A DNA stretch of 64,000 nucleotides from Dethiosulfovibrio peptidovorans DSM 11002 (GTDB taxonomy: Bacteria > Synergistota > Synergistia > Synergistales > Dethiosulfovibrionaceae), in contig NZ_ABTR02000001.1 in assembly GCF_000172975.1 (NCBI RefSeq), positions 493,501 through 557,500 of the forward strand, given 5' to 3'. The notes beneath the pieces are model-generated. The model saw nothing but the letters and a program-made list of their open reading frames with translations, was not told the origin of the DNA and ran no database searches. A program made the translations under genes and the position numbers. Of the stretch, positions 1 through 18,340 are shown in pieces (the first letter of the stretch is position 1; the number at the start of each line of letters is the position of its first letter).

Positions 1-807
1 GTCGGGACAGCTCCACAGGGCCTCGTCTTTCGACCGATCCCACCGGGCCAGCCGCCGCTCACCGCCGAGAGGGTGATGTTCGCTCAAATCTCCTATTATT
101 TCTCCGTAGGTCTCACATTTAACCCTAAGGGACATGGACATTCCCGGCTCTCTCATATCAAGTCCCGTGGTGGAAAACAACATACCGTCCTCCGCCGTCC
201 CTTTTTGGGAATCTATGGATACGTGAACACGGTCTTCCTTTCGAGGAAAATCTTTAAACGGGGAGCTCCCTTTTGCCTTGTAATTTTCATCCTTAGGATC
301 AATTTTAGGCATGGAGGCGACATCCTGGGCCAAAAGCCATTTGATCATAAGATCAGAACGCCAAAAAGGTGGGATCTTACCAGGCTTGAACGACTCTTCA
401 GGTTCGGGCTCCATGAAAGGCAGATATTCCTCTTCGCCCAGATCGGTCCCACAAGAGGAACCGCATCTATCCTCCACACGACGAGGCCTCAACATAAACG
501 GACCTTTCTTTTCGGCAGCATTGTCCTTTTGAACGAGAATATCCTTGGGAGCAGGAAAGAAGAGAAAGTCACCGTTAGAAGAGGATTCCAACGGCAAAGG
601 CCCTAAAATAGTCATCGCCTTGAGACCATCGACCATTTTTTTGTCGAAAGACCCTCCAGCCAGCTTACCAATCATGGTTCTGAGAGACCCTGCCACAGTT
701 GATGGTTTAGGCCAGTCCAGCGAGTGCATTCTGTTTCCAAAGGAAAAAGGCCTGCCGTCTCTGGCTATCAGAGGATCCTTAGGGATTATCCGTATCGTAG
801 AAATCAT
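1..807 (-). CDS. cmr3: Cmr3, type III-B CRISPR RAMP protein (partial, 3' end beyond window)
   Basis: The open frame runs from an ATG at 807 to base 1 without a stop, so 269 N-terminal residues are visible. The N-terminus carries the Cmr3 hallmark: DPLIARDGRPF near residues 11-21, then WPKPSTVAGSLRT near 32-44 and GKLAGG after it. Cmr3 binds the 5' handle region of crRNA at the base of the Cmr effector complex. The start overlaps the cas10 stop by four bases (ATGA), so the two are translationally coupled. Residues 95-170 are rich in Pro, Glu and Lys. The missing C-terminus and any cmr4, cmr5 and cmr6 should lie just beyond base 1. Identification rests on motif and gene order. Confidence 0.88.
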   Translation of the reverse strand, partial: MISTIRIIPKDPLIARDGRPFSFGNRMHSLDWPKPSTVAGSLRTMIGKLAGGSFDKKMVDGLKAMTILGPLPLESSSNGDFLFFPAPKDILVQKDNAAEKKGPFMLRPRRVEDRCGSSCGTDLGEEEYLPFMEPEPEESFKPGKIPPFWRSDLMIKWLLAQDVASMPKIDPKDENYKAKGSSPFKDFPRKEDRVHVSIDSQKGTAEDGMLFSTTGLDMREPGMSMSLRVKCETYGEIIGDLSEHHPLGGERRLARWDRSKDEALWSCPD

Positions 808-2537
808 GATCTGTCCTCCTCCTGCCCTGTCCCGAGGTGACGGGCGATGAGAAGCTCGGACACCAGGCTCTCAAGCTTTTCAACGGAGGTCACGCTCTCT
901 ATCCTCTTTTCCAGTACTTCGTCCATCGGCTTCAATGTACCGTCGGGGAACCTCTTTTTGCCTAAGACCCTCTTTATGTCCGCGGGGATGGCCTTCTCAA
1001 GTATCTTGCTGTCTTTCCAGTTACGGTAGAAATCGACCATGCTCCGAAGTTCGTAGGGGAAACGAGACGAGATCGTCTCGTCTTCGAAAAGCTCGGCCCA
1101 ACATCGCAGCCTCACATCGACGGGAGAACCACCACGATATTGATCCCACCGTTCCCTAAAAGCGATAGGGGCGTTGCCCCTGGAGCGAACGACCACTGCC
1201 AGACCGTTTCTATCTGGCTCCTTGGCCAGAGTCTCAGCCTCGTCGGCGAAGCGAAGCAAATCCTCAAGAGGTTCTAAAAAGTGTCCTACTGCGATGCCGA
1301 CGGAGAGGGAAGGTGCTCGATCACTGGGAAAATAACCGCGGCTTTTCTCAAAACTCTTCTCGAAAGCCTCCGCCAAGGCCTTAGCACATTCGATACAGCT
1401 GTCCAAAGGCAGGAACGCCAGCACATCGTCTCCACCGGCGTAGATACATCTTTTTATAACCCTTTCTTTGTCTTTCTTGTTAAGAATCTTGTGTGCCTCG
1501 TTGGCGAATCCGGCCAAATCGGAGGAGAAAACCCTGTGTCCTTCCGGGTCGTTTATGGACGATATGGCAGCACCCATTTTGTCCCCATCGGCTTTTAAGA
1601 TCGCAAAATACGGATTGGGCTCGCCGATCTTTTTAGCTAGCTTTTCTCGACACTCTTTGATCTCCGAGAGATCTTCTTTCATCTCATCCTGAAGCTCCAG
1701 GATTCTGGACGGGAAGGCGGCCTCCCCCTGCAGGAGACCTTTTACCTTACTCAACGCTTCCTCAAATTTGCCGTACTCTTCGGGAGCCAGTCGCTTGGCT
1801 TTTTCAATCCATGAAGACGCAGCAAAATCATCGACAGAAAGGAACGTTTTTTTCGAATCATCGATGGGGCTCGCTACCCTTTTTATAAGTCCCAAGGCAT
1901 CCAGCTGTTCCGATGACTTGAGCCTCAATGTCAGTCGCTTAGAGATATCGGACTTAAGGACCTTCTCCACGAGTTGTCTGTCTTTAAAAACCGACTCGTT
2001 TCTGCCGTCTAAAGACGACTTTTCCACCTGTCTCTTATCTGGATCGCCGGGCTGATAAAAATCTCGACAGTTTTTCCTGGCCCCCATTAGGCGGCCCACC
2101 TTGTCCCTGGCATCCTTGTAATTCGATTTACCATCATAGGGCACCCAGACGGAGAAGAACTCCAATGCCTGTTCTATCTGATCGTCCCAGAAATCTCTAT
2201 TGACCAGCTCTCCGTACTCTCCAAGAACCTGGTCGCCGTAGCCCTTCAGGACCGACAGGGCCTTTTCCCTGGCCTGACGGACCACTTCCTTTGGATCTCC
2301 ATTGGGAAGCTCCGCCAGTATGACGTTGGCAACGTTAGGGTCTCTGCCGTCGGAGACGTTCAGAGAGTCCTTTTGGGGGAAAATGAGAACACCACCGTTC
2401 TCTCTGACCGATCGGGCGGTCTCCATACAGATCTCCGAAAGGAGCCGGGATCCGAACCACAGGTCCCTTGTTCTCCTGGCGGCTGCGATAAAGGGCTGGA
2501 CGGGACCGATGGATATGTTAATCAGATAGCCGCTCAT
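804..2537 (-). CDS. cmr2: Cas10/Cmr2 large subunit without HD nuclease domain
   Basis: The product has 577 residues, far shorter than usual Cmr2 (about 850-1000). It opens directly at the first palm domain (ISIGPVQPFIAAARRTRDLW), so the N-terminal HD DNase domain is absent. KADGDKMG near residue 318 is the first palm motif, and YAGGDDVLAF has an intact GGDD at 368-371, the catalytic site that makes cyclic oligoadenylate. The Cys-rich zinc finger of typical Cmr2 is not seen; only isolated Cys residues occur in that region. Start and stop overlap cmr1 and cmr3 by four bases each. The protein should therefore signal rather than cut DNA, consistent with a CARF protein in the same locus. The family call is firm; the lack of nuclease activity is inferred. 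Confidence 0.93.
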   Translation of the reverse strand: MSGYLINISIGPVQPFIAAARRTRDLWFGSRLLSEICMETARSVRENGGVLIFPQKDSLNVSDGRDPNVANVILAELPNGDPKEVVRQAREKALSVLKGYGDQVLGEYGELVNRDFWDDQIEQALEFFSVWVPYDGKSNYKDARDKVGRLMGARKNCRDFYQPGDPDKRQVEKSSLDGRNESVFKDRQLVEKVLKSDISKRLTLRLKSSEQLDALGLIKRVASPIDDSKKTFLSVDDFAASSWIEKAKRLAPEEYGKFEEALSKVKGLLQGEAAFPSRILELQDEMKEDLSEIKECREKLAKKIGEPNPYFAILKADGDKMGAAISSINDPEGHRVFSSDLAGFANEAHKILNKKDKERVIKRCIYAGGDDVLAFLPLDSCIECAKALAEAFEKSFEKSRGYFPSDRAPSLSVGIAVGHFLEPLEDLLRFADEAETLAKEPDRNGLAVVVRSRGNAPIAFRERWDQYRGGSPVDVRLRCWAELFEDETISSRFPYELRSMVDFYRNWKDSKILEKAIPADIKRVLGKKRFPDGTLKPMDEVLEKRIESVTSVEKLESLVSELLIARHLGTGQEEDRS

Positions 2538-3805
2538 CGGGACACCTCCTGAAAACCTTGAGATTTGGCGTAGGCCATGAAGGCATCAAATACGTTCTTA
2601 CCTCCCATAGGCTTGCAGTTCATGGCCTTTGTATCCTCCAGAGAAGTCTCCACGCTATCCTTAAACTCCTCACTTCGGCCATGACTTACCCACTTCCCAG
2701 ACAAATCCAACGCCCTAAGAAAAGGAGGAGGTAATAAAAACAAGCCCGAACGCCATGAACCATCCACAAAAATGGGTCTAGTGATAATGGGGCTGGACAT
2801 TCTCTCCGCACCCGATGGTTTTATGGTTGTTGGGGAAGGATCCCTATCCGAACGAGCCCGATTTTTATCCCCATCAACGAATTGGAAAATAATAGGCAGG
2901 CCGAGATGAGCCCTCGGGAAAGACCTCCGTGCGACATTGGGGACTATCGGCTCGGAGTGTTTTGGGGTAGAGCAACCGGTAATATCTCTTATAGCATCGG
3001 CCTCCGGCCAAAAAGTACGACCTGGAACATGAAGCACCTTGCCATTATTTAATACTTTCTCATGAATAGCCCCTCTAAAACCCTGCCTGAAGGATCGATA
3101 AACCTCAACTGAATCTCTCCAAGCTGCCATGGCTCCTCCCTTAGGATTTGATATCAACACGCTAGCAAACACGCCATCAGACAAGCAATTTGAGAGATAG
3201 TCCTCTCCCAGATCAGTCCCATCGTTATGCAAAGCTCCAAGACCTCTCCTGGTACGGCTACCTATTCCACCAAAGGAAAGCCAGGCTCGCAACGCACACA
3301 AGACCTCATCTCTAACAGACACCTTTATCGGAGTAGTTTTCTTTATATCCTGATATCCATCGATATAGTCTGGAGCGGAGACGTTCAAATCGAAAGAAAG
3401 CCCTTCAGTAGCAACTTCCTGTCCGTTCTGCTTGGCGGAGAATAAGGCATACTGCTCTGGGCCAAAATTTTTAAACCGATCGACAGCCTTAGTTTCAATT
3501 GAAGTGTGTTTTGATACCGATATCCTCACCGGGCTGGCTTTTTCCGTATCCCCCCATATCTGGGACTCCCTGTGGTAAAGCTCCTGGGAGGAGCTGAACT
3601 TTCTGCCACAGGTCGCCCTCCACCAGAAACGAAGGTGCCCTCGAATCGCCGTTCCCCGAACAGGGTGTTTCCCGTCTACCTCTCCCGCTTTAACCCCTCC
3701 GCCGAACATCGGGGTTACCACCGAGATACGGTATGTCTCCTCGAACGTTCCGTCGCCAAGGTTGCTTTCAGGTTTGGCCGGAGGCTTACTTCCTATAGAG
3801 CGCAT
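2534..3805 (-). CDS. cmr1: Cmr1, type III-B CRISPR RAMP protein
   Basis: This is a 423-residue RAMP protein. The N-terminus reads ISVVTPMFGGGVKAGEVDGK, then RGTAIRGHLRFWWRAT, then QIWGDTEKASPVRISV. This is the Cmr1 pattern: TPLFxGG, RxxSIRGxLRFWWRA, and EaxIFG followed by a beta strand. Cmr1 joins the Cmr effector complex at the 3' end of the crRNA. A second glycine-rich stretch, GGIGSRTRRGLGAL near residue 190, is the G-rich loop typical of RAMPs. A GAAGGAG Shine-Dalgarno precedes the ATG at 3805. A 74-base gap separates it from the Csx20-like gene upstream, the largest gap in this unit, so a weak extra promoter is possible there. Confidence 0.9.
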   Translation of the reverse strand: MRSIGSKPPAKPESNLGDGTFEETYRISVVTPMFGGGVKAGEVDGKHPVRGTAIRGHLRFWWRATCGRKFSSSQELYHRESQIWGDTEKASPVRISVSKHTSIETKAVDRFKNFGPEQYALFSAKQNGQEVATEGLSFDLNVSAPDYIDGYQDIKKTTPIKVSVRDEVLCALRAWLSFGGIGSRTRRGLGALHNDGTDLGEDYLSNCLSDGVFASVLISNPKGGAMAAWRDSVEVYRSFRQGFRGAIHEKVLNNGKVLHVPGRTFWPEADAIRDITGCSTPKHSEPIVPNVARRSFPRAHLGLPIIFQFVDGDKNRARSDRDPSPTTIKPSGAERMSSPIITRPIFVDGSWRSGLFLLPPPFLRALDLSGKWVSHGRSEEFKDSVETSLEDTKAMNCKPMGGKNVFDAFMAYAKSQGFQEVSR

Positions 3806-5258: not shown

Positions 5259-5260
5259 GA

Positions 5261-5938: not shown

Positions 5939-5977
5939 GTCGACTCCTCCTTTGAGTTTTTATAGGCTCTCTTGCCT

Positions 5978-6000
5978 TATATTTATTTTTTTAGAGACAT
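5978..6000 (-). promoter_or_regulatory. 23-bp repeated element, copy 1 (upstream of the vWA-PP2C-csx20-cmr unit)
   Basis: On the minus strand it reads ATGTCTCT, seven A, then TAAATATA, and it is identical to 7905-7927. Its 3' end is 39 bases before the vWA start codon. Directly after it comes a short hairpin (AGGC, six-base loop, GCCT) and then AAAGGAGG. No TTGACA-like box sits at the expected distance, so this is not an ordinary sigma-70 promoter. It overlaps the region just after the PIN-kinase stop. Confidence 0.7.
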
Positions 6001-6003
6001 CTC

Positions 6004-7860
6004 TCAGTGAACACAGGAGGCCTGAACGAAGGATCTGGAGACCTCTCTACAGGTCGGACAGGAGGCCGGGATATGGCCTCTCAAAACGCTGTCGGCCAGG
6101 AACTTGGGAGCCTCGTAAAGCTCTCCGCAGGAGACGCATCTAAGCGTCACGGAGGACCTGCAGTCGGGGCAATAGGTGGCCTTGCCACGACTGGTCAGAT
6201 CCTCCGCGAGAAATAGGGGCATCCCGAAGGTTTTTCCGCAATGATCACACTGAACCATGACTTCCTGGCGGCAGTCATCGCAGTAACAGTCCCTTCCCCT
6301 CTCTTTGAGACTTTCCAGGGTTGGAGAGCTTACCTTGAAAGCCTTTCCGCAGAGGGGACAGACGTGATCGACCGGGTCCACTATCTTGGGCGAGGAGGGA
6401 AAGAGCTCGTCGGAAAAGTAGCCTTCCTCCAGACCACGACGGTAATCCATGAGCATCTCGAGCCACATAAGGGCAGAGAGGCGGTCTCCCCTGTTGAATA
6501 CAGCCTCGAAGCCGTCTTTTATCGCCCTTGGAAGGTTGCTGAAGATATTGCGCCAGGGCCCGCGGGGAACGTTTTCGCTTCGTTTTTCTCCAACGGCATA
6601 GGGAAAGTTTCCGAGCCTTATGTTTTCGCCGGGATCTCCTCCACCTTGATGGGAATATGGAGGCTTGCCGGGAAGCAGGATCATGAAGATAAGGGTGGCC
6701 AGGGCGAATTCCTCATGAGCCTTGGTACGCAGGAAGAACTTGAAGTCCTTGCCCTGTATCTCAGGGGCGGTGAAATTCGCCGTTCCGACCGGGCAGGGAT
6801 AGTTCTCCAGCTGATAGCTGTCGGTGTCCACGAAGTAGGCTTTTCCCGTCCGGTCCAACATTATGTTCTGAGGATTTATGTCTCCTAAAAGGACGTTTCT
6901 ACCGTGAAGAGCACAGATCTTTTCCGTCACGTCTATGGCCAGATCGACCAGATTCCGCCTGGTCCATTCGGGAAAGTTTCTCTCGAAAAGGGGTTTGACG
7001 AAGAGGGCTTTATGAAGGGATATGCCTTCGGCCCTGTCCATGACGTATCCGACAAATCGACCGCACCCGTCCCTGAGGATGTCTCTGGGCCAGCAGATTC
7101 CGGTGGTGGAACATCCGGCATCCACCATTTTCTCCAGCTTAGGCTCCTGATAGGAGTGGAGTTTTTCCGGACGATAGATCTTGCAGACCCGACCGTCGTC
7201 GGCAAGCCAGCAGGTGCCCTCTCCTCCGCTGCCCAGGGAGGAGACCATGGTGATGTAATCGGAGCTGGTGTGCAGTACCGTTCCCTCCACGACCGGCTCG
7301 GGAAGAGCTTCCAGAGAAACGAACTCTACAGGCGAGGTCCCCATAGGAAATACGGAATCGGCAGAGGGTAGAGCAAAAGAGGGAGCTAGGGCCTCGTGGG
7401 AGACGAGCCTTTTTCCGTCGCTGGATATGCCAAAGGCGGCGATATCCCTTTTTCTATCCACCGAACCGATATCCCTGAGAGCTGTCAGATCTCGCCCGAG
7501 CTTTTTATCCTGGGTGATAAGACAGAGATCGTAATCGGTCATAAACCTGGTGAAGAGGTTTATGAAGAGTTGATCGGGGAAACGGTCTCCCGCCTCTCCC
7601 CTCAAAGAGAGCAACCCCTCTTTCTGGTAGGAACAGAGAATACGGTATCCCTCTCTGGCCAGCTTGCCCCTTCGGGTGTCCTCGTCTTTGAACTTGAGAA
7701 GTTCCTGCACCACTCCCCGAGGGACCACGACCTGAGCCCCCTCCTCCGCCAGTATCGGCGCCAAGACATCCATGAAGAAAGTCTGTGCTCTGCGATGCAT
7801 GATAGCGCAGGTGTCGACGAAGATACGTCCACTGGACGTCATGTATTTCTCCAGCTCCAC
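6004..7860 (-). CDS. PIN domain - protein kinase - triple zinc-ribbon fusion (TerY-P kinase)
   Basis: The product is 618 residues from a GTG at 7860 preceded by AGGAGG. Residues 10-155 form a PIN-like nuclease domain (VDTCAI with Asp16, VVQELL, then LITQDKKLG). Residues about 200-470 are a Ser/Thr kinase: glycine loop SLGSGGEGTCW, VCKIY lysine, catalytic loop HGRNVLLGDINPQN with Asp327, VDTD replacing DFG, and TAPE. Residues about 500-610 hold three CxxC...CxxC zinc ribbons (CPLCGKAF, CDHCGKTF, CVSCGELY, each with a later CxxC). Kinase plus zinc ribbons is the TerY-P arrangement; the N-terminal PIN nuclease is an addition. It is a single-gene unit between a terminator and the vWA unit, with its own 23-bp element. 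Targets are unknown; neighbours are obvious candidates. Confidence 0.87.
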   Translation of the reverse strand: MELEKYMTSSGRIFVDTCAIMHRRAQTFFMDVLAPILAEEGAQVVVPRGVVQELLKFKDEDTRRGKLAREGYRILCSYQKEGLLSLRGEAGDRFPDQLFINLFTRFMTDYDLCLITQDKKLGRDLTALRDIGSVDRKRDIAAFGISSDGKRLVSHEALAPSFALPSADSVFPMGTSPVEFVSLEALPEPVVEGTVLHTSSDYITMVSSLGSGGEGTCWLADDGRVCKIYRPEKLHSYQEPKLEKMVDAGCSTTGICWPRDILRDGCGRFVGYVMDRAEGISLHKALFVKPLFERNFPEWTRRNLVDLAIDVTEKICALHGRNVLLGDINPQNIMLDRTGKAYFVDTDSYQLENYPCPVGTANFTAPEIQGKDFKFFLRTKAHEEFALATLIFMILLPGKPPYSHQGGGDPGENIRLGNFPYAVGEKRSENVPRGPWRNIFSNLPRAIKDGFEAVFNRGDRLSALMWLEMLMDYRRGLEEGYFSDELFPSSPKIVDPVDHVCPLCGKAFKVSSPTLESLKERGRDCYCDDCRQEVMVQCDHCGKTFGMPLFLAEDLTSRGKATYCPDCRSSVTLRCVSCGELYEAPKFLADSVLRGHIPASCPTCREVSRSFVQASCVH

Positions 7861-7940: not shown

Positions 7941-7974
7941 AACGCTCCCTCGATCAGAAGACCGAGGGAGCGTT
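7941..7974 (-). terminator. Rho-independent terminator of the CARF-HD to AAA+ operon
   Basis: A perfect 12-bp stem (AACGCTCCCTCG with its complement) encloses a 10-base loop. On the minus strand it is followed by TTTTTATT. It sits about 40 bases after the AAA+ stop, separating the polymerase operon from the kinase gene. Confidence 0.9.
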
Positions 7975-8011: not shown

Positions 8012-9412
8012 CTACAGACAGTGCCTCAGACACAGCATATCAGAACCTTCTTTGATGGCTTTCTGGACGGCTCTGCGCACGATAAACCTCAATTCCCTGA
8101 AGTTACCGGGGTATTCCTTTTCGACCAGGTACTTTATGGCATCCAAGGATATCTTGGGAACTCGCTCGTCCGGATTTACATCTTCGTCCTGCAAGATCAG
8201 GCTAAGCAACAGTTTACGGTCTCCCTGTCTTTCTCTTATAGGGGGGACCTCCACCACATGGTCGAAACGGTGAAGAAGGTCGGCTCTAAACCCATCGTCT
8301 CCAGAGGAGACCCATTCTTTAAGGGGGCGATTCGTTGCCGCCACCAATATCACCGGTACAGGTATGGGCCTGTGATAGCCCACCGGTGTGATCGTTCCAC
8401 CGTCCATGTAGGTTAGGAGCCTGGTCTGGTGATCCGACCTCATGTCGCCAATTTCGTCCAGAAAGACGACCTTGCCTACATTGGAAGGAAAAAATCCTAA
8501 GAGATCCTCTCCCTTTTTCATGCCGGAGTAAGCCCCTTCCACCGCCCCGAAGAGCATGGTGTCCACTAGATCGGAGGGAACGGCGGAGATGTTCATCGAT
8601 GCAAATCCATCGTCCTGTCCGGGGAACAGGGCTTCGGCAATCCATCGAGCCAACAGACTTTTACCGGTGCCGGTCTCTCCCAAAAGAAGGATCGAGGGTA
8701 CGCGAGGAAAGTCAGAGCCTTTTTCACTAAGGTAATTGGCTACAATCTCTATTTTTTGACCGTCTCTCTTGACGAACTTTTTTACCTCCTCTCTGTAAAT
8801 ACGGAGGCTGCAAAGGGCTCTCTCGTCCGTGACGGATCTCAGACCGGACTTAAGGTCGTCCATCAGTTCCTGGGTGGAGGGATCGGCACATAGGCTGAAA
8901 AAGCTAGGACCGGATCCCTTAGCTATCTTCGCCTTCCAGGCTACGCTTTTATAGAGGACCTCCTCTCCTGATTTTTTCCGTAATTCCGCCCTAAAAAGGG
9001 ACGTAAGAGTGGATTGAAGCCTGGCCAACTCGTCCAGGTCCCTGTCCTGTTGGTCGGTGAGCCCCAGGTGGCTTTGACGAAAAATACCTACCACGGAGGA
9101 ATATATGTCACCGTGGAGCTTCTCTACAGAACCGTCCCAGGAGGAGTCCTTCAAGACGACGATCACCGACAGTGTCTTTTCTCTCTTGCCTTTCAGGCCA
9201 TCCAGAAGTTCGGCGGGGAAACCCATTGCTACGGTGGCCTTTTTCGGATCGTCCACGATCTCGAAATCGACCTCTTTCATCTCTTCTCGACGGGAAACGC
9301 TCAGCAAACATCTTTCTTTCCACTCTGCCACCAGAGTCTCCAGCCCTCTTTTTACCGCCTCATCTCCGCACAAAAAGACCTTGAAAAGAGATGCGCTCCT
9401 AATTCTCGCCAT
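8012..9412 (-). CDS. Sigma-54-activator-like AAA+ ATPase lacking a DNA-binding domain
   Basis: The product is 466 residues. The AAA+ domain has Walker A GETGTGKS at 245-252, Walker B FLDEIGD with Asp319-Glu320, and a sensor II region (EYPGNFRELRFIVRRAV) of the bacterial enhancer-binding protein type. The sigma-54 contact loop GAFTGA is replaced by GAYSGM at 293-298, and the protein ends soon after the AAA+ lid with no Fis-type helix-turn-helix. The first 200 residues (VFLCGDEAVKRGLETL onward) are unrecognised and may sense a ligand or partner. It is the last gene of the operon with the fused polymerase and overlaps the 326-residue gene by 14 bases. A polymerase remodeller is the natural guess; direct sigma-54 activation is less likely. 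RtcR-type regulators are the nearest relatives I can name. Confidence 0.82.
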   Translation of the reverse strand: MARIRSASLFKVFLCGDEAVKRGLETLVAEWKERCLLSVSRREEMKEVDFEIVDDPKKATVAMGFPAELLDGLKGKREKTLSVIVVLKDSSWDGSVEKLHGDIYSSVVGIFRQSHLGLTDQQDRDLDELARLQSTLTSLFRAELRKKSGEEVLYKSVAWKAKIAKGSGPSFFSLCADPSTQELMDDLKSGLRSVTDERALCSLRIYREEVKKFVKRDGQKIEIVANYLSEKGSDFPRVPSILLLGETGTGKSLLARWIAEALFPGQDDGFASMNISAVPSDLVDTMLFGAVEGAYSGMKKGEDLLGFFPSNVGKVVFLDEIGDMRSDHQTRLLTYMDGGTITPVGYHRPIPVPVILVAATNRPLKEWVSSGDDGFRADLLHRFDHVVEVPPIRERQGDRKLLLSLILQDEDVNPDERVPKISLDAIKYLVEKEYPGNFRELRFIVRRAVQKAIKEGSDMLCLRHCL

Positions 9413-10379
9413 TTAGCTCTCTCCTCAGACGTTTTTTCCAGGAATCGAAGATCTTGCACCTAAAGTTCTTCAGCTGGTCTTGAGACCTTCCGTAGCCGAA
9501 AGGGGCAAAGGGGTTGCCTTCATCCTCGATAAGCTTTGAGTTCAACTTCGCGTGGCTCCATCCTTTTTTAACGAAAGTCACCAGGTCGTTTTTGATCATA
9601 GTTTGATACTGTTCGTGCAGCATCCATCCATCGACCGCACCGTCAGGCGTTTTCGTCCACGAGACCGATTGATCCAAAAAAGATCTCTCGTTCGCTCCGT
9701 TTTCTTCGCACCATTTGGGAAGCCATTTCCTGCGAAACCAAAGCCAGTCGGCCACTTCCGGTAAGCCTCCGCCTCGGTAAGATCCGAAAAAGGAAGCTAC
9801 CGTCATTAGACACCTAGTTGATCCGGGAACGAGAATCGTCATTCTATTCCAAGACGGTATAGCGTTGGTTCCCAGCCAGGTCGGGGCGAATATCCCAGAT
9901 GCGTTCCAAGGGGCAGGTTGTCTTTCTTCGCTCTCCATCCACGGAAAATATCTCCTGTAGTTCTCGGTAGACCACTCTATTAGAAGACGAAGGCTCTCGC
10001 CCAGCCCCTCCTTGTACGGATCTCCTCCCCTTCCTGCATGACACCAGACTAGCTTTTCTCCCGTCCAGATCCAGACCGGACGACAATAGGCGTCCAGTTT
10101 ATTCGAGAGATAGAAGGGGTCTATTTCCTCTTCACAAAAATCTGTAACTTCGTCGTCAGACCGATCGTTCAGATCTACGTCGACATCCTGAAGCTCTTCC
10201 TGGTCTCGTTCTTCCCATAACTGCTCTATTAAATCCGACATGTCGTCATCAAGACAGGCAGCCAACTCGGATTTATTGAGGTACTGCCAGGCGCTGGCTC
10301 TGTTTTCCGCATTTACGGCAAGCTCTGTTTTCTGAGAGGTTTTAGTCCTCTGCCTGCTCTGTAACCTCATAGCGCCCAT
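9399..10379 (-). CDS. Unrecognised 326-residue protein, possible partner of the fused RNA polymerase
   Basis: I do not recognise this family. It starts 1 base after the polymerase stop, with GGGAGG eight bases upstream, and overlaps the AAA+ gene by 14 bases, so it should be made with both. The N-terminal 15 residues are basic. Residues 40-90 are strongly acidic (DDDMSDLIEQLWEERDQEE, DVDVDLNDRSDDE). The rest is Trp-rich (WIWTGEKLVWCHAGRGGDPY, WLWFRRKWLPKWCEEN) and ends basic (WKKRLRRELNGEN). No membrane segment or signal peptide is seen. Its position would suit an assembly, specificity or regulatory subunit for the neighbouring polymerase, but nothing in the sequence proves that. No sigma region 2/4 signature could be read by eye. 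Confidence 0.75.
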   Translation of the reverse strand: MGAMRLQSRQRTKTSQKTELAVNAENRASAWQYLNKSELAACLDDDMSDLIEQLWEERDQEELQDVDVDLNDRSDDEVTDFCEEEIDPFYLSNKLDAYCRPVWIWTGEKLVWCHAGRGGDPYKEGLGESLRLLIEWSTENYRRYFPWMESEERQPAPWNASGIFAPTWLGTNAIPSWNRMTILVPGSTRCLMTVASFFGSYRGGGLPEVADWLWFRRKWLPKWCEENGANERSFLDQSVSWTKTPDGAVDGWMLHEQYQTMIKNDLVTFVKKGWSHAKLNSKLIEDEGNPFAPFGYGRSQDQLKNFRCKIFDSWKKRLRRELNGEN

Positions 10380-10380
10380 T

Positions 10381-13300
10381 TCAAGAACCTCCCTTCGCCC
10401 AATCTTGATCCAGCATCACCTGGGCCTTCAGTCCCGACATGGATTCGCTTCCACCTTTTAGTAGGATGTCGTCGATCCTCTCGTAGGCCATAGCCGCAAG
10501 GGCTCTATTCTCACGGTCCGAGGCCCATGAGGATAGTCCTTTCGGAGCTCTCAAGGCCAGTTCGAAGAGGACGAGACGCTGAGGAAGCTCCTTGAAACGG
10601 TTGGATCTCTCTCCGTCTTCCGAGCCTGGGTCGGTCAGGACCTTGTCCAGTAGGTCTCTGTATCGTTCGGACAGGTCTCTTATAAAGCCTTCCTTTTCCT
10701 CTTGGAACAGGTTCACGTCGGACTCGACCTTTTTTACCTCGTCGGACAATAACCTTTTGCCTGTGATCAGCAACCGTCTCAAATAGCCTATAGGGTCGCC
10801 CTCCACGCCCGATCCGACGTCGTGGAATCTCTTCATGGCTAGCTGGGTTCCTCTTTCGCCTATGCCCATGGCGGCGTTTAGGCCAACCGGCATACCCACC
10901 GGCACAGCTTCATCGCCGACTCTGCCGATATCGGCACCGACGCACCGGGAGCACACTCCTCTTTCCGACTGAGCACAGGTGATGGGGCTGGCACAGGAGG
11001 CTATGAGGACCGGACCTTGACCTATGTTTATCGTTTTAGAGACATCCTTTAGCCTATCCAGGTCTTCAGCAGTGATCGGTTTATCGAAATCCACAAGATC
11101 GATACGTTCTTCCGCTTTTTGGCCGATCCTGTAACACCAGCGACCGAGCAGGACCGACTCTAGGGCACTACCTACGTCATCCCCGGGGAATATCTCCGGA
11201 GATTCCCAGAGACAGCCTCCTTTAGGCTTCAGATGATGGCCCTCGGGAAAAGTGTAGTTTATCGAAAGCCTACGTTTCTCTTCGCCAACGGCCTGAACGT
11301 ATATCTCCATTCGACCCTCCGAACCGCAGTCCTCCGATTCGGTCAAGGTATCGTACAGTCCTTCCGCCAGCAGCCGGGAGAGGTATCCTGCCTGAGCAGT
11401 GGCGAGTTTTTTGTCCCCCATAGAGTCTCTGGAGGCGTAGCTGTAGACGAAGAGTTCGTCGTCGGACAGGCCGGTCCAGAAACAGCCAGGAATCCAGCTT
11501 TCGTGGAGAGGTTTGTAGAGGATCGGATCAGGCTTTTTCGGGCTAGGCTTTTTCTTACCTTTAGCCGCCATATCTTCTTCGTCAATAGCTGGCGCAAGTT
11601 TCTCTGATGTCCTTGAGTAGATATCCTGAAGGCCGATAAAGCCGCACATATGACGAAGATCCGAGGGCTTCCCTTTGGCTTTGCTCAGGACCATTCTACC
11701 TAGGTGAGAGTTTGAGTGGCTTTCAAGCCATCTCGAGATCACCCCTTCAGCGGCTTTTTCGCACTTTTGATATTTTGCCTTAAGCTCTCCAAGCTCCTGT
11801 TGGGTTATCTCTTGCGGGGTGTAGTCCTCGGTCTCCTCCAGACTACGGGCCTCTTTCCTGTTTTCCTCTAGTTCAACAAACAGGGCATCCAGCTCGTCTG
11901 GAGGAAAGCTGCAACACCCCGTCGAGGCGGCACAGATATCTCGTTGTAGCTTCCCAAGATGGATCCACCAGTCTGGATCGTCCTTCACCATGGCGTTTAC
12001 CAGGTCACCTAAGGCTGTTGCGTAGTCCTTCGATTTATCCTCCACGTCCTCGACAGGATAGCAGTAGCCCAGGTATTCTTTCTTTGTCTCCCTGTCCAGA
12101 GCGCTCCATCCCAGAGCCAAATCCAGACCGGAGGCTATCATAAGCTTGCCGTCTCCGATGCGGCCGGGAGTGGCCTTCAACGTAAAATCGCTAAGGTCCT
12201 TTATCCAGGGATATTGGGGCAGATACACCGCCATGGTGTCGCCGTCAAAGTCGGCGTTAAAACCCTCTGTGACCATTGAGGGAATGGCCATGGCCTGTTC
12301 CTCCCATACGGTCCACTTGAAGGCCTGAACGGAGTGGCGGTGCAGGCTCGGCTGACGGATCAGGATACACCACAGGGGGCCACTGGCTTCCAATGCGGTG
12401 TTGATCATCTCCGCGGCCTCTTTAACCCTGACTGCGTCTCCACTGTGGGCTTTTTTACGAAGATCCTTTAATTTTCCCTCCAGGCCAAGTATATCCAGGC
12501 CGTTGTGGCCCTTCAGGAGTTCCACCGCCATCTGGACCGGCAGCCGGACCTCGTCCAGAGCCAGCTCCGGACGGCTTACTATGACCGCCCTTCCACTGTG
12601 GTCGGTCCTGTGGCCCAGAACGTGCCTCCGGAGGATTCCTCTCTTGCCTTTGACGCAGTTGGAGAGGGTCTGCCAGTATTTTTCGAGAGTGCTCAATATC
12701 GAATAAGCCCTCTCGAGGGAAACCGACTTGCTCCCCGTCACCTTGCCGAACTCGGCCATAAGGGCTCTGTAGCAGTTCGCCAGGGCTTCCTGCCCTATCA
12801 GGGTATCGCGATCAAACGGTATACCCCAGCCACCGTCAAGTCCCTTAACTGTACATAGGGACAAAGCCATGGGAGAACAGGGCATCTTAGGCCGAGATCT
12901 CTCCTCCTCATTTTTTATGACGACATTATTTGCTGCAGGGAGTTCATTAAGGACACCGAGTATAGGATGGATCGAGTCTCCATCGAGCGAGGCCAGAGCC
13001 TTCTGCATCTTATCGAGGGCGCTATTTCGCCAGTCGACAGTCATCCTACCGACGATATCCTCGTTACTGAGACAGAGAGCTACGATTTCCGAGACGGCCG
13101 ATTCTTTTTCTGAGTTCTCTCTGTCCATGAAGGTTACGACCCCTCGAGAAAGACCGGAGTTATCCACATCTCCGGAGTTCAGAAGGGATTGGGCAATCCT
13201 ACCGGATAAGGAAGGTTCACGGTCCTTTCCGGACAGTGGTCTCTCCCATACTACCCCGTGTTCCTTTTTCTTCGATTTAAGCCCTGCAAGCCACAGAAGC

Positions 13301-15459
13301 TTTTCCAGGGCATCCATGGTGAGTGCCTGGCCGTCTTTCTGTCTTTCTCCCGAGGCCCTAAGGCTGGACAGGAGGTCCAGGGCGTGGCTGTCCAAACCGT
13401 TTTCGGAACATAGTGGGCCTCTGCTGAGGATGGCCCAGTTCTCCATCTCTCCGAGCCTCTGTCCAGCTTTGGCTCCGCCGGAGGTTGGCTGGCCGATGAA
13501 ACGGTTGGAGGGGCCGTCGGTCCCCCGGGCCTGGAGCTTTTTGTCCACGTGATGGACTAGCCGGGAGATGTACTGATAACCGCAGAAGGCCCGGACCTCT
13601 TTCTCCTGGGCTCCTTCCCTATACCGGACGGGGAAGCCGCTGCCTTTGTCGGTCTCGTCACTCAGGCCAAGCTTTTTGAGGATCGTCAGGACCGTGTTTC
13701 GCCATTCTTCTCCACGGTAGAGACCGTCGCGTTTTACCTCGTCGTCTATGAGGCCCCATTCCCGGGCCTTCAAGGCCAGGCCGTGGCCCATCTCCAGTAT
13801 CTGGCCCAGGTTTTTACGGCCTACTATGGAGCAGGGGGAAATGATCAAATCCACCGTCTCCACACGTTCCGTACCGTCGGGGCCTTTCAGGACGACCTTA
13901 GGCATGGCATCGTCTTCCTCTATTTTTGTGACGACTCCTTTGTTGCCGTTCCTTCCGGTGATTTTATCCCCAATCCTGAGGGGCCTGACGATGTCGAACT
14001 CGTAGACAATCTCGACCTTGGTCGGTATCGAATCCTTTCGTTTTCTATCAATGACTGATTTTACCGACACATTGACCAGTGTCCCAGGCATAAACCACGG
14101 ATAGGAGTGGCTCTTTTCACCAGCTAAATATCCGGGCAAGGGCAGCGGCTTGTCGAAGATATAGGTTTTCTTCTTTTTTCCAGCCAGATCACGGACCTGC
14201 TCCTCAATTTTCTCGATTAGTTCTGAAAATTCCTTAACCCCGGCCTTGGGAAGCATCTCGTTCTTCAGCTCGTAGATCTTTCCGGTTGGCTGTTTTTTGG
14301 GCTTCATCTTCAGCTTTTCAGCGAAAGATCGAGAGACCACCAGACCGTCCTCGTAGGTAAGTCCCTTCCAGGGCATAACAGCCACCAGGGCATTGACTCC
14401 AAGATAGGGCTTAAACCGCCCCGCCTCGTCCAGATGCCCCTCAAGGGCCTCTATTTTTTTACCTCTGGCTCCCTCTATGTACCCAGGGACCAAAGAGGGC
14501 TCGCCACCCTCTATATTCTGTTCCGCCTGTTTGAGGTTTTTGCCTCCCATCATGAGCCTAGGCCCGTCGCTGTGATGGGGATAAGGAACCATACCGACGG
14601 CCACGGAGAAAAGGCTTTGTTCCTCGCCATCTTCAGCCAGCTCGACCCCCTTGCCGCCGTCACCCTGATGGGCCGTGGCGGTCATGAAAAGCTGAAGACC
14701 TATCTTCTCCGACTCGGGAGTGTGGAATGGGCACAGTCGATTTTTATGGCTTTTGTGGGGAAGCCTGACCCTGCCGTTGGTCTTGACCTTGGAGGCCATG
14801 GTGACCTGTCTCTCCAGCTCCAGGCAGCGAAGGGAGTTGCTGTCGTCCAGAGGCAAGGCCTTCACCAGTCCCGACCGGACCGATCGGGAGGTCCAGAAGC
14901 TGTTTAGGTTGGACTCCAGCTTACACAGGATAACGAGCATATCCTTCTTCAGTTTATCTTCAGGTACCTTCTTCTTCGATTCCGACAGCTTTTTGAGAGC
15001 TCTTTCGGCACGTTTTATCGAGTACTCCAGGTTAGACCACCAGGGGGAGTAGATCTCAAGTTTTTCCAGGTCGGGGACATCCTTGTTCGTTAAAGACGTC
15101 AGATACGTATCGTTCCGCGTTTCTTCGTCAAAGTTCTCTCCCTTTTTTTTCTTTACTTGAGTCCTCTTGCGACCTACCATAGCCAGGCTCCACTGGGATC
15201 TATCGTCGTCCAACGCAGCGACCTTAGATCCGATCGGCAGTATCATCGTTACCGTACGTTCGATATCTATGCCGTGAGCCGAAGCTTTTATCGATATGGG
15301 AGCCATGACGGCACCGCCGTTCAGCTCCTCTAAAACCTGAAAGTCGTTAACCTCTAAAAAGGGAGACAAAACGTCGGAGCGGCACCTCTCCACGACGGTC
15401 TTCAGCCTTTCGACTATCTTATCTATTTTAATTTTATCTTTATCGGGATCGACCTTCAT
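10381..15459 (-). CDS. Compact single-chain RNA polymerase: fused beta and beta-prime catalytic cores
   Basis: The product is 1692 residues. The beta half shows CPFHTPES at 243-250, the MMGGKNLKQA segment, NALVAVMPWKGLTYEDGLVVS, GDKITGRNGNKG at 497-508, and VHHVDKKLQARGTDGP before QPTSGGAKAGQRLGEMENWA. The beta-prime half shows LRRHVLGHRTDHSGRAVIVS, the active-site NADFDGD at 1068-1074 (all three Asp kept), a bridge-helix segment ending AQAGYLSRLLAEGL, four Cys fitting the second zinc site, and the trigger loop GIGERGTQLAMKRFH at 1532-1546 with its His. Active site to trigger loop is 464 residues, close to the Escherichia coli spacing. Large parts are missing, including the beta lobes and the beta-prime N-terminal zinc region; housekeeping beta plus beta-prime total about 2700. 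The start has AGGAGG eight bases upstream and overlaps CYTH by four bases. Its context excludes a housekeeping role. Confidence 0.95.
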   Translation of the reverse strand: MKVDPDKDKIKIDKIVERLKTVVERCRSDVLSPFLEVNDFQVLEELNGGAVMAPISIKASAHGIDIERTVTMILPIGSKVAALDDDRSQWSLAMVGRKRTQVKKKKGENFDEETRNDTYLTSLTNKDVPDLEKLEIYSPWWSNLEYSIKRAERALKKLSESKKKVPEDKLKKDMLVILCKLESNLNSFWTSRSVRSGLVKALPLDDSNSLRCLELERQVTMASKVKTNGRVRLPHKSHKNRLCPFHTPESEKIGLQLFMTATAHQGDGGKGVELAEDGEEQSLFSVAVGMVPYPHHSDGPRLMMGGKNLKQAEQNIEGGEPSLVPGYIEGARGKKIEALEGHLDEAGRFKPYLGVNALVAVMPWKGLTYEDGLVVSRSFAEKLKMKPKKQPTGKIYELKNEMLPKAGVKEFSELIEKIEEQVRDLAGKKKKTYIFDKPLPLPGYLAGEKSHSYPWFMPGTLVNVSVKSVIDRKRKDSIPTKVEIVYEFDIVRPLRIGDKITGRNGNKGVVTKIEEDDAMPKVVLKGPDGTERVETVDLIISPCSIVGRKNLGQILEMGHGLALKAREWGLIDDEVKRDGLYRGEEWRNTVLTILKKLGLSDETDKGSGFPVRYREGAQEKEVRAFCGYQYISRLVHHVDKKLQARGTDGPSNRFIGQPTSGGAKAGQRLGEMENWAILSRGPLCSENGLDSHALDLLSSLRASGERQKDGQALTMDALEKLLWLAGLKSKKKEHGVVWERPLSGKDREPSLSGRIAQSLLNSGDVDNSGLSRGVVTFMDRENSEKESAVSEIVALCLSNEDIVGRMTVDWRNSALDKMQKALASLDGDSIHPILGVLNELPAANNVVIKNEEERSRPKMPCSPMALSLCTVKGLDGGWGIPFDRDTLIGQEALANCYRALMAEFGKVTGSKSVSLERAYSILSTLEKYWQTLSNCVKGKRGILRRHVLGHRTDHSGRAVIVSRPELALDEVRLPVQMAVELLKGHNGLDILGLEGKLKDLRKKAHSGDAVRVKEAAEMINTALEASGPLWCILIRQPSLHRHSVQAFKWTVWEEQAMAIPSMVTEGFNADFDGDTMAVYLPQYPWIKDLSDFTLKATPGRIGDGKLMIASGLDLALGWSALDRETKKEYLGYCYPVEDVEDKSKDYATALGDLVNAMVKDDPDWWIHLGKLQRDICAASTGCCSFPPDELDALFVELEENRKEARSLEETEDYTPQEITQQELGELKAKYQKCEKAAEGVISRWLESHSNSHLGRMVLSKAKGKPSDLRHMCGFIGLQDIYSRTSEKLAPAIDEEDMAAKGKKKPSPKKPDPILYKPLHESWIPGCFWTGLSDDELFVYSYASRDSMGDKKLATAQAGYLSRLLAEGLYDTLTESEDCGSEGRMEIYVQAVGEEKRRLSINYTFPEGHHLKPKGGCLWESPEIFPGDDVGSALESVLLGRWCYRIGQKAEERIDLVDFDKPITAEDLDRLKDVSKTINIGQGPVLIASCASPITCAQSERGVCSRCVGADIGRVGDEAVPVGMPVGLNAAMGIGERGTQLAMKRFHDVGSGVEGDPIGYLRRLLITGKRLLSDEVKKVESDVNLFQEEKEGFIRDLSERYRDLLDKVLTDPGSEDGERSNRFKELPQRLVLFELALRAPKGLSSWASDRENRALAAMAYERIDDILLKGGSESMSGLKAQVMLDQDWAKGGS
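11023..11045 (-). promoter_or_regulatory. Degenerate copy of the 23-bp element inside the polymerase gene
   Basis: On the minus strand it matches the 23-bp element at 20 of 23 positions: ATGTCTCTAAAA, then CG in place of AA, then ATAAACATA. It lies in frame in the polymerase gene (codons for DVSKTINI), same orientation as the other copies. It is not followed by a hairpin. It could be an internal promoter or chance. Confidence 0.35.
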
Positions 15460-15914
15460 CCATCGTTCCTCCTCTTAGGGAATCCGTCTTTAGCCAGTTT
15501 TTTGTTTTTCCATCGGGGATCCCATGTAATTTCTTCTACAAGATCTAGCCACCCAGGCAAAGGAGGAACCGGGGAAGATTCGTTCGGCAACTCCACCTCC
15601 GCCACGGCCAATCCTGGGAGGTCGGGATAGATATCCACCTCCCATGAACCGGCCAGATAGCGGGTCTTTTCGATCCTCCAAGGGGCGAAGCATCCTACAA
15701 GACGAAAAAGCCAAGAGGGAATAGGGCTCTCCCACTCCCCTCTGACCATCCCGCCTCCGGTCTTGACAGTGAAGAAGCAACTTTCCACGACAGACCTGAG
15801 TCTGACCTCCAGGGATTTAGACGCCAGAAGATACCTTTGATCTATCCTGCGACGATCGCCCCTCGGGGTTCCGACGACCTTACAGAGATATTTCCTCTCG
15901 ATCTCGGTTCCCAT
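15456..15914 (-). CDS. CYTH-domain triphosphate tunnel protein
   Basis: The product is 152 residues, one whole CYTH domain. The signature EIERK near residues 4-8 fits ExExK, and RYLL, VRLR, FTVK, EKTRYL, WEVDIY and AVAEVEL supply the alternating charged strands of the tunnel. A DPRW motif follows. CYTH enzymes hydrolyse inorganic, thiamine or RNA 5' triphosphates, or make cAMP, using divalent metal. The gene sits between the CARF-HD gene and the fused polymerase, overlapping the latter by four bases. A role on triphosphorylated nucleotides or RNA ends made by that polymerase is plausible but unproven. The six-base gap to the upstream stop argues for co-transcription. Confidence 0.87.
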   Translation of the reverse strand: MGTEIERKYLCKVVGTPRGDRRRIDQRYLLASKSLEVRLRSVVESCFFTVKTGGGMVRGEWESPIPSWLFRLVGCFAPWRIEKTRYLAGSWEVDIYPDLPGLAVAEVELPNESSPVPPLPGWLDLVEEITWDPRWKNKKLAKDGFPKRRNDG

Positions 15915-15919
15915 CTCGG

Positions 15920-18340
15920 CTAGCTTTCATTCTCCAAGACATCAGGATCGGTATCGACGGTGATGCCACCTAAATAGTCACGAGGACTCTTAATCCCATC
16001 AATCGTGCCCCTCGCTCTATGGACCTCCTCGACGATATCCTTAGCGATGGATCTAAGCTCTTCTTTAGAGTGACCATTTTTCCCCGATAGAAGGGATATC
16101 TTTACTCCACCGTCGTTGCCGGCCCCATCTTTTTTAGCAGGCACGGGAAGGACCACCTCCACCGAACGGTGTTTGTAGAAGTGCAGAAACTGCTCCCACT
16201 TGAAGGCTATTCTGTTTGCCAATGACAGGGCCTGAATCACCTTGACGTTGTCCGGTTCGAAAAGGCTGTTAAAGCTCTTCTCTCCCTTGACGCTCCTCAG
16301 GATCTTGAATATTGACGGATAGAGGGAGGAACCGATTCTCTTTATCTTATTCGTATCGATATCGTCCATAGTGCCGTCTTTAGCAGCTTCGGGAGTAAGC
16401 TTTCCAGCCTCCGAGCAGATCTCCTCCAGGCATCTACGTATAGACATAGGGGTTCCGTCCGCGTCCACGACGTACTCTTTCAACACGTCTTCGAACATGG
16501 GTAACTGAGCCTCCAGCGTCTTGGCCTCGTAGGCCGTCCTCTGAAGACGCTGGATCAGATGATCGTCGCCGACCACCCTATCGGACTGGACGTCGCAACC
16601 GTCTATCACCCTGAGAAGTGCCGTGACGGTGAGAGTCATGTCGGGGGTCATCGTTTCGCCTGTCTCGTTGAAAAAGGGTCCATAGTTTTTCTCGAGTTTT
16701 TTGTCCAGAGGGAGAAGGGTTTTCTCAAAACGATCCTCTCCCATGAGGAACTTTCCTACCTGCCAGACCGCTTTTTTCTCCTTGAACTCCACATTTTCGT
16801 TCAATCGGACGTAGTTTCTGTGACCGGCGCAGACCTCGGGAAGAAGCTTTCTTAAGATCTTTATTTGGGACTCCAGTTTTTTCCAATCTAAGTTATCGCT
16901 GTCACCAAGCACGGAATAAGCCTTGGGAAAAAGCAGCCCTCTGGTCGAAGCTTCGCTTTCGTCGATATTTTCCGTCCTGTAGCGAATCATCTCGGCAGAA
17001 AGCAGGTGATGGACCTCCCGAACGGCAGAGGGGAACAAGGACAGAGGGAATGCCCCGGCGTCCTTGGCCTTATCGGGGTCGATGGGATAGACCAGCGCAG
17101 TGTGGCCGATGTCGTGAAGGTATATAGCAGAGATAAGAAGAGCCAGAGGAATGGCTTTATCCATATAAATGTGGGATACGCCATCGGTACCCTGGTCCAG
17201 AGCGCGAAGGAAGTTTCCTGCTATCTCCATGAGACGCTTGGAATGCCGCCTGGAGTGCTCCACCGTCTCGGGAATCTGATCCCCCATCCAGAGCTCGGAC
17301 CAACTGGTCTGGATAAGCCTCTCCAGATAGGTTCCCAGATCCGAGTCTATTGCTTTCAGACGGGTTAAAAGTTCCTTGCCCGATCCAGTGACCTGATTGC
17401 GCCCCTTTTCGTACTGTTCTATGAGGCTATCGACCAGGGAAGAGGGCTGCCCGTCAACGAAAAGCCCGCTCACCCATCGAGGAAGGGTTTTGTTATCGAG
17501 GATCCCCTTCCTGTTTTCTGGATTTTCAAGATCCCTTAGTCCCTTCAAGAGGGATATCTCCTCGTCCATGGCCCCTATGGCACAGGAGATGGGAAGGGGC
17601 ATAAGATCTAACGTTTTGGCCCCGTTTTCTTCAAAAACATAAATAGAAGGGAATCCGTTTATCAGGCCATAAAGATTGACATAAGAAGAAATAGCTTTAT
17701 AGCCACCCGTTCCATTACAAATAAGCTGAACATGATCAGTGATATTCTTATTTTTGATATTATCAAATTCCGAAAAAAGGCTATCTACTGCCCTTGCAAG
17801 GCTATCAGCGTCCTTAACCACTATATCCAAAGCCTCAACAAACCCATCAAATACAAAATGCTTCCACGGACCATGCTCAGAGATAAATTTAACAATATAG
17901 CTAGATAAATAAGCATTAAAAATACTATACTCATCTCTAGAAGGGAAAAAATGCATTTCCAAGGAAATTTCTTCCTCATTACCGTAGTAAGAAAAAAGCC
18001 ATCCCAAGGTACTTTGAATTTCGGCACTAGGGAAGCTATTGCCTAGCAAACTCTCTAGATTAAAATCTTTAAAAAAGATAGCACTAGCAGTAGACTTAGA
18101 CCCTCTTGTTTTATCTGGAAGATAAGATTGGTCAGAAAACAAAGAGACAACCTCTTCAAGGGTTTCCTTTGAAAAATCAAGACGTTCCAACTTATCTTGA
18201 GTCCTTTTTATTTTTTTAACTCTCTCTTTTCGAATTTCCTTATCATAACGCTCGACTTTCAAGTCTTTTTTAAGGCTTCCATTTACAGAAGTCCCCACCG
18301 TACAGAGCATCACTATTTTACGAACTTTATCCGAGCTCAT
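15920..18340 (-). CDS. CARF - HD fusion protein, probable cyclic-oligoadenylate-controlled effector
   Basis: The product is 806 residues. The N-terminal domain has the CARF features of the Csm6/Csx1 group: a first strand ending CTVGTSV (residues 13-19) and NGTGGYKAISS from residue 209, followed by NGFPSIYVFEE. An HD phosphohydrolase domain follows, with His362 (EHSRRH), His409-Asp410 (HDIGH) and a later ALLRVIDGCD segment. CARF domains bind cyclic oligoadenylate made by Cas10, so the GGDD-active Cas10 downstream is the likely partner. The HD domain missing from Cas10 is thus present here in a separate protein. The CARF-coding DNA is much more AT-rich than the rest: 22% GC at 17881-17940 against 57% at 17281-17340. 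It heads the polymerase operon. Its substrate is unknown. Confidence 0.85.
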   Translation of the reverse strand: MSSDKVRKIVMLCTVGTSVNGSLKKDLKVERYDKEIRKERVKKIKRTQDKLERLDFSKETLEEVVSLFSDQSYLPDKTRGSKSTASAIFFKDFNLESLLGNSFPSAEIQSTLGWLFSYYGNEEEISLEMHFFPSRDEYSIFNAYLSSYIVKFISEHGPWKHFVFDGFVEALDIVVKDADSLARAVDSLFSEFDNIKNKNITDHVQLICNGTGGYKAISSYVNLYGLINGFPSIYVFEENGAKTLDLMPLPISCAIGAMDEEISLLKGLRDLENPENRKGILDNKTLPRWVSGLFVDGQPSSLVDSLIEQYEKGRNQVTGSGKELLTRLKAIDSDLGTYLERLIQTSWSELWMGDQIPETVEHSRRHSKRLMEIAGNFLRALDQGTDGVSHIYMDKAIPLALLISAIYLHDIGHTALVYPIDPDKAKDAGAFPLSLFPSAVREVHHLLSAEMIRYRTENIDESEASTRGLLFPKAYSVLGDSDNLDWKKLESQIKILRKLLPEVCAGHRNYVRLNENVEFKEKKAVWQVGKFLMGEDRFEKTLLPLDKKLEKNYGPFFNETGETMTPDMTLTVTALLRVIDGCDVQSDRVVGDDHLIQRLQRTAYEAKTLEAQLPMFEDVLKEYVVDADGTPMSIRRCLEEICSEAGKLTPEAAKDGTMDDIDTNKIKRIGSSLYPSIFKILRSVKGEKSFNSLFEPDNVKVIQALSLANRIAFKWEQFLHFYKHRSVEVVLPVPAKKDGAGNDGGVKISLLSGKNGHSKEELRSIAKDIVEEVHRARGTIDGIKSPRDYLGGITVDTDPDVLENES

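Follow-up and report, generated by a model that had tools for sequence, protein, structure and literature searches.

The 64,000-nucleotide stretch of Dethiosulfovibrio peptidovorans DSM 11002 analysed here (the window) carries on its minus strand a gene for a 466-residue protein that, judged by its sequence, is a bEBP-clade AAA+ protein with intact ATPase motifs. Members of this clade carry out ATP-driven remodelling of the sigma-54 holoenzyme. We consider it roughly an even call that the protein would be an active, ring-forming ATPase, decoupled from sigma-54, that serves the RNA polymerase (RNAP) of its own operon together with the neighbouring protein p326. An AAA+ protein of this type in genomes without detectable sigma-54, beside an RNAP with no recognisable sigma-docking clamp, makes the transfer of bEBP-style initiation to another polymerase testable.

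The operon comprises, in the order of transcription, genes for a CARF7-HD protein, a CYTH-like protein, a fused beta-beta' RNAP, p326 and the AAA+ protein. These genes overlap or are separated by gaps of at most 5 bp, and the best-formed intrinsic terminator of our scan lies directly 3' of the last one. This arrangement supports the prediction, already made in the earlier note, that the AAA+ gene is co-transcribed with the polymerase, and makes it the closing gene of a tight predicted operon. The features of the region are as follows, with the basis of each assignment in brackets.

15920..18340, minus strand: CARF7-HD protein, first gene of the operon (Pfam, PADLOC)
15456..15914, minus strand: CYTH-like protein of 152 residues (ORF; EIERK motif)
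10381..15459, minus strand: fused beta-beta' RNA polymerase, 1692 residues (ORF, alignments)
12238..12258, minus strand: RNAP catalytic motif NADFDGD (motif scan)
10819..10860, minus strand: RNAP trigger-loop-type motif GERGTQLAMKRFHD (alignment)
9399..10379, minus strand: p326 orphan with polar N-terminus, acidic segment and folded C-terminal part (ORF, composition)
10116..10235, minus strand: acidic 40-residue segment of p326, net charge -17 (composition)
8012..9412, minus strand: bEBP-clade AAA+ protein, 466 residues, ATG start, without HTH (ORF, Pfam, model)
7941..7974, minus strand: intrinsic terminator with a 15-pair stem and T-rich tail (terminator scan)
2534..3805, minus strand: Cmr1 (context search)
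804..2537, minus strand: Cas10/Cmr2 with GGDD, no HD domain match (ORF, Pfam)

Pfam assigns the AAA+ protein to Sigma54_activat (PF00158, E=1.1e-32) and AAA_lid_14 (E=8.6e-9), and no HTH family is among the Pfam families shown. All ATPase motifs that we looked for are present, which confirms the complete core (GETGTGKS, FLDEIGD) described in the earlier note.

8969..9388, minus strand: N-terminal alpha/beta domain, residues 9-148 (AlphaFold2 model)
8657..8680, minus strand: Walker A, GETGTGKS, residues 245-252 (motif scan)
8519..8536, minus strand: L1 loop, GAYSGM at the GAFTGA position, residues 293-298 (motif scan, alignment)
8444..8470, minus strand: Walker B, VVFLDEIGD, residues 315-323 (motif scan)
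8261..8290, minus strand: arginine-finger segment, FRADLLHRFD, residues 375-384 (motif scan)
8090..8107, minus strand: sensor II, GNFREL, residues 436-441 (motif scan)

Additionally, the switch Asn is residue 274 and sensor I (AATN) spans residues 358-361, while only 25 residues lead from GNFREL to the C-terminus. The AlphaFold2 model (pLDDT 83.7) places a helical linker between the alpha/beta domain and an AAA+ module of bEBP type. In a structure search with this model, the module matched NtrC1 (1ny6) with a Z of 24.2 and an rmsd of 2.1 over 241 residues; VpsR and FleQ were also among the structural matches. The AAA+ fold, Walker A and B, switch Asn, R fingers, sensor II and L1 insertion are common to this protein and the bEBPs of AAA+ clade 6 (NtrC1, PspF, ZraR, FleQ).

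A phylum-wide search of 185 Synergistota genomes returned matches at E<=1e-30 in 18, of which 15 belong to the AAA+ family of the operon; the remaining three (G143, G106 and G108), with E of about 1e-31, are hits to ordinary bEBPs and fall outside it. Thirteen loci were fetched besides the window, 14 in total, and 11 of these entered the AAA+ alignment, a near-duplicate (L032), a truncated copy (L039) and a split one (L041) having been dropped. Some trimmed starts in this alignment and in that of the p326 family were chosen by hand. Overall, 16 family members were compared, every one from Synergistota. The chain stops just past the lid in all 16 and an HTH occurs in none, as at the HTH-less end reported in the earlier note. 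Walker A and B, the switch Asn, the R fingers and sensor II are conserved in 11/11 aligned members, all of which match PF00158, and the ATPase motifs and a C-terminal C-L-R-H tail persist down to about 36% identity. Because the truncated end and the intact motifs both recur in homologues, they are not due to chance. Two copies are irregular. In genome G018 (L039:6800-9679) a 315-residue AAA+ protein of the family, without the N-terminal domain or a polymerase, adjoins a 580-residue protein with a Csx20-like C-terminus, and in G080 (L041:1788-3160) the AAA+ gene is broken into two frames that overlap, through either sequencing error or decay.

With respect to the L1 loop, the 16 members were searched for GAFTGA and an HTH, which the earlier note had named together as contrary to its proposal, and neither was found (0/16 for each). 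One member (L046, from a genome outside the sigma-54 test set) has GAYTGA, and seven of the 16 have D or S at position 5. Variation falls mainly at positions 2, 5 and 6; all 11 aligned members begin the loop with Gly and have an aromatic residue at position 3 and Thr or Ser at position 4. GAYTGA is also the loop of the only genuine bEBP of the genome, whose gene adjoins rpoN and whose domain order is receiver, AAA+, HTH. Since this variant occurs both there and in a family member, the altered loop of the earlier note is weaker than it sounds: the reading GAYSGM is correct, but Tyr for Phe is ordinary in the genus, and from the sequences compared it is the Thr-to-Ser and Ala-to-Met changes that are real departures. 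In PspF, the loop Phe touches the threaded N-terminal peptide of sigma-54, according to PMC9770992. The half of the loop expected to grip a peptide is kept and the remainder is free, a pattern that would be more readily explained by a new partner than by lost function.

The main new evidence comes from the distribution of sigma-54. A search for Sigma54_DBD in 20 genomes gave 11 positives and nine negatives, and seven of the negatives carry the AAA+ gene (G065, G036, G059, G045, G062, G037 and G080); Sigma54_CBD was also undetected in these seven, while control genomes were positive for sigma-54 domains as expected. Sigma-54 was detected in 8/15 AAA+ genomes and undetected in 7/15. The earlier note had proposed checking the genome for sigma-54, and the answer is divided, as the window's own genome is among the positives. 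The seven negative genomes are 89-99% complete, G037 being a single contig, and the complete chromosome record of Fretibacterium fastidiosum, which belongs to this sigma-54-negative group, likewise gave no sigma-54 match. Across the phylum, Sigma54_CBD was found in 42 of 183 genomes. None of the seven has a strong Sigma54_activat match other than the operon AAA+ protein; the remaining matches (none stronger than E=2e-10, with frames roughly 370-890 residues long) are probably Lon- or Clp-type proteins, judging by their length. Persistence without sigma-54 is not what is expected of an obligate sigma-54 activator, and the presence of the AAA+ gene in such genomes therefore makes the private polymerase its probable target. 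Control of the locus by sigma-54 promoters was also considered, and was rejected: with two mismatches allowed, the -24/-12 pattern occurs 11 times in the window, where 16.9 occurrences are expected.

An RNAP or RNAP fragment adjoins the AAA+ gene in 13 of the 14 fetched loci, window included. The exception is G018, with neither RNAP nor p300, the family of p326, within 20 kb of its AAA+ gene. In every sufficiently complete locus p300 sits between the polymerase and the AAA+ gene, which starts at most about 20 bp from the p300 stop in 11/11 aligned pairs (some of these starts being hand-chosen). Gene linkage is thus the evidence that suggests the RNAP-p326 pair as the partner of the AAA+ protein, with G018 as an orphan exception. 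The earlier note had proposed a bEBP mechanism redirected to the polymerase or its 326-residue neighbour; this is partly supported, in that a bEBP-type machine decoupled from sigma-54 is upheld by the seven genomes above and the tie to the polymerase by gene linkage.

The CARF-HD alignment was also run as query against 84,980 species genomes, a scan that finds CARF-HD-linked systems only. This returned 14 loci, all in Synergistota, including Fretibacterium fastidiosum and Pyramidobacter. In Pyramidobacter sp. C12-8 (L053:4582-9526), cmr1 and a broken cas10 come immediately after the CARF-HD gene, and RNAP, p300 and AAA+ genes are lacking. Because this locus has CARF-HD and cmr yet neither AAA+ nor RNAP, the AAA+ gene appears to track the polymerase and not CARF-HD or cmr. 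The first gene product of the operon matches PADLOC model PDLC01933 (1129 bits; 9/9 aligned members match) and belongs to the known CARF7 CARF-HD ancillary proteins, a family that covers the CARF-HD gene only. The second has no Pfam match, and we take its EIERK motif to be CYTH-like. Among the fetched loci its gene occurs only in the window and in G109, and PADLOC includes a CARF-CYTH-HD fusion family. The G109 locus (L029:4662-6971) also holds, after the AAA+ gene, Cas1 (5973-6971) and a group-II-like reverse transcriptase (4662-5654), as well as a 541-residue protein without assigned identity.

The catalytic motifs of the operon polymerase are intact. In an alignment of seven operon polymerases, NADFDGD is conserved in 7/7, the trigger-loop-type GERGTQL is invariant, and Pfam finds Rpb2_3, Rpb2_6, Rpb1_2 and Rpb1_5 in all seven. 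In contrast, Rpb2_1, Rpb2_2, Rpb2_45, Rpb1_1 and Rpb1_3 were absent from all seven by Pfam, and control RpoB/RpoC from the same phylum show every one. The hhalign alignment to cellular RpoC starts at RpoC residue 444, past the coiled coil near residues 420-440 (the DLNDLYRRVINRNNRL segment, residues 420 on) that we take to be the sigma dock of cellular RNAP. The beta lobes and the sigma-docking beta' clamp are thus not recognisable at the sequence level, although diverged helices could remain. An RNAP without the usual sigma dock would need a starting factor of its own, and p326, located between the RNAP and AAA+ genes, is therefore the obvious candidate.

In the p300 alignment (12 members, with L039, in a wrong frame, and the near-duplicate L032 dropped), every member has an acidic 40-mer of net charge -10 to -22 that precedes the folded part; the N-terminus of the family is polar. 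No Pfam family matches p326, and elsewhere in p300 there are only weak, single-member matches; the AlphaFold2 model (pLDDT 53) is too poor to interpret, and Foldseek gave no match at E<=0.001. We also considered p300 as a divergent sigma-54 and rejected it, as hhalign against the genome's RpoN gave 0.1% and the likeness (a polar start, then an acidic linker and a folded part) extends to composition alone.

The N-terminal domain of the AAA+ protein has no Pfam match, CARF families included. A CARF identity found no support by profile (hhalign 0.1% against the operon's own CARF domain); the 50 structural matches listed for the whole AAA+ model contain bEBPs and no CARF chain, which does not count against a CARF. 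A receiver likewise found no support by profile (hhalign 0.2%, no Pfam match). In the whole-model search, alignments to receiver-containing bEBP structures reach AAA+ residues 8-10 at rmsd above 16, so that the domain may be receiver-like by these extended, high-rmsd alignments.

The operon has a type III-B cmr locus and a CRISPR array as neighbours. Downstream of it in the window are a kinase/VWA/PP2C triad, a Csx20-like gene, Cmr1 and Cas10/Cmr2, followed beyond the window by cmr-like ORFs, a Csx1-like protein and type-I-like cas ORFs (named by eye). The array, past the cmr genes (L057:4-1693), has 26 copies at about 66-bp spacing. Among the 13 other fetched loci, seven have cmr1, six of them with cas10 as well; single loci have Cas1, an array about 8 kb away, a Csx20-like gene with a weak Cas10 match, or a Csx1-like CARF gene only. 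Two, both on short contigs, showed no CRISPR genes or array. A type III cas neighbourhood thus recurs around the family, as is characteristic of CRISPR ancillary genes. This context and the CARF-HD head of the operon are additions to the earlier note. The triad (window 4260-7860) resembles TerY-P, with a PIN/kinase/zinc-ribbon protein, a VWA protein and a PP2C, and lies between the AAA+ and cmr genes. It was rejected as part of the system, since the terminator at 7974-7941 intervenes and the matches listed for the remaining 13 loci do not include it.

These data suggest the following mechanism. The AAA+ protein would assemble as a ring. The Gly of L1 that never varies, and the aromatic residue with the Thr or Ser next to it, would hold on to a flexible polypeptide, for which the polar/acidic N-terminal tail of p326 and a mobile portion of the polymerase are the likeliest candidates. 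ATP hydrolysis would remodel the RNAP-p326 complex, and the polymerase would then start or be loaded. Having no DNA-binding domain, the ring would be recruited by protein contact and not by an enhancer. Type III-B CRISPR systems respond to invader RNA by synthesising cyclic oligoadenylate, and the neighbourhood, with what is known of these families, makes it probable that the operon answers such signalling. The GGDD Cas10 would make the cyclic oligoadenylate, which CARF7-HD would read or degrade. Candidate outputs of the polymerase are transcription of defence genes or of invader DNA, or a non-standard product.

The points against this explanation are the linkage break in G018, the presence of sigma-54 in 8/15 genomes, the sigma-54-competent GAYTGA of L046, the lack of profile similarity between p300 and RpoN, and a loss of the clamp that is judged by profile. 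The AAA+ protein could be a sigma-54-independent remodeller of another partner (CARF-HD, the Cmr complex or a host protein) that is merely an operon-mate of the polymerase. This is a genuine possibility, if a somewhat doubtful one: the G018 relative occurs without RNAP or p300, Csx1-like/CARF and cmr genes lie near many loci too, and bEBPs act on both protein and DNA substrates, as PMC9770992 states, but the AAA+ gene otherwise keeps company with the polymerase, with p300 between them wherever visible, and is missing together with RNAP from the Pyramidobacter locus that has CARF-HD and cmr. More conventionally, the protein could act from solution on sigma-54 RNAP, with its loop variant tolerated. 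Groups of this kind exist, since group 5 bEBPs (FlgR, CtcC) and FleT have no DNA-binding domain and are listed as sigma-54 activators, FlgR and CtcC with a receiver domain and FleT without one, in the account given by PMC7175178; furthermore, the window's genome has RpoN and a canonical bEBP with GAYTGA. In contrast to those proteins, the operon AAA+ occurs in seven genomes in which sigma-54 was not detected, and its N-terminal domain is not established as a receiver; -24/-12 sites are not enriched in the window, and D or S at loop position 5 is frequent. We regard this reading as improbable.

VpsR and R. capsulatus NtrC bind DNA via an HTH. A role like theirs, as a regulator of the housekeeping sigma-70 polymerase in which ATP binding outweighs remodelling, is very unlikely given the absence of an HTH from the whole family, the strict conservation of the ATPase motifs and the operon's own polymerase, even though the structure search also matched VpsR and FleQ, and bEBPs without GAFTGA at sigma-70 promoters are described in PMC10274813. 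Finally, a decaying bEBP without function is scarcely credible: the two-frame copy in G080 and the missing N-terminal domain in G018 would agree with it, and the ATPase motifs and C-L-R-H tail, conserved across widely diverged members, do not.

The preferred reading, a remodeller of the RNAP-p326 pair, can be extended to a private transcription machine tied to type III CRISPR. Here a clampless single-chain RNAP would use p326 as its initiation factor, the AAA+ ring would pull on the polar/acidic N-terminal tail of p326, the counterpart of sigma-54 region I/II, and CRISPR second messengers would gate the machine through the CARF-HD protein. We hold this extension to be doubtful. If true, evolution would have arrived a second time at ATP-dependent initiation of the sigma-54 type, for a new polymerase and with no sigma-54 involved. 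To our knowledge, CRISPR ancillary activities are mainly those of nucleases, membrane proteins, proteases and nucleotide-converting enzymes; the type III link would bring RNA synthesis into this repertoire.

Among known systems, the best PADLOC match of the AAA+ protein is RtcR/RtcR_PspF2 (CARF-AAA-HTH; 6.5e-51, AAA+ part only), from which it differs in having no HTH and an N-terminal domain without CARF similarity in the tests run. From bEBPs in general, of which every group but group 5 has a C-terminal HTH, it differs in the same absence of HTH, in its loop and in its occurrence in genomes without detectable sigma-54. PADLOC has no model for the operon RNAP, and we recognised no description of the RNAP/AAA+ module in the literature searched; the CARF census of Makarova et al. 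2020, which lay outside that scope, may mention the neighbours.

A phage origin was considered and rejected, as a phage tblastn gave 58 records, none with at least 80% query coverage. A plasmid search returned 10 matches, all ordinary bEBPs. In IMG/VR, the AAA+ alignment found 80 bEBP-like loci and the RNAP alignment 40 loci, mostly with split or distant RNAPs of about 2300 residues, near which there was no match to the AAA+ or p300 references. Five of the IMG/VR contigs (L066, L068, L070, L071 and L083) carry single-frame RNAPs of about 2300 residues with 23-30% identity to the operon polymerase.
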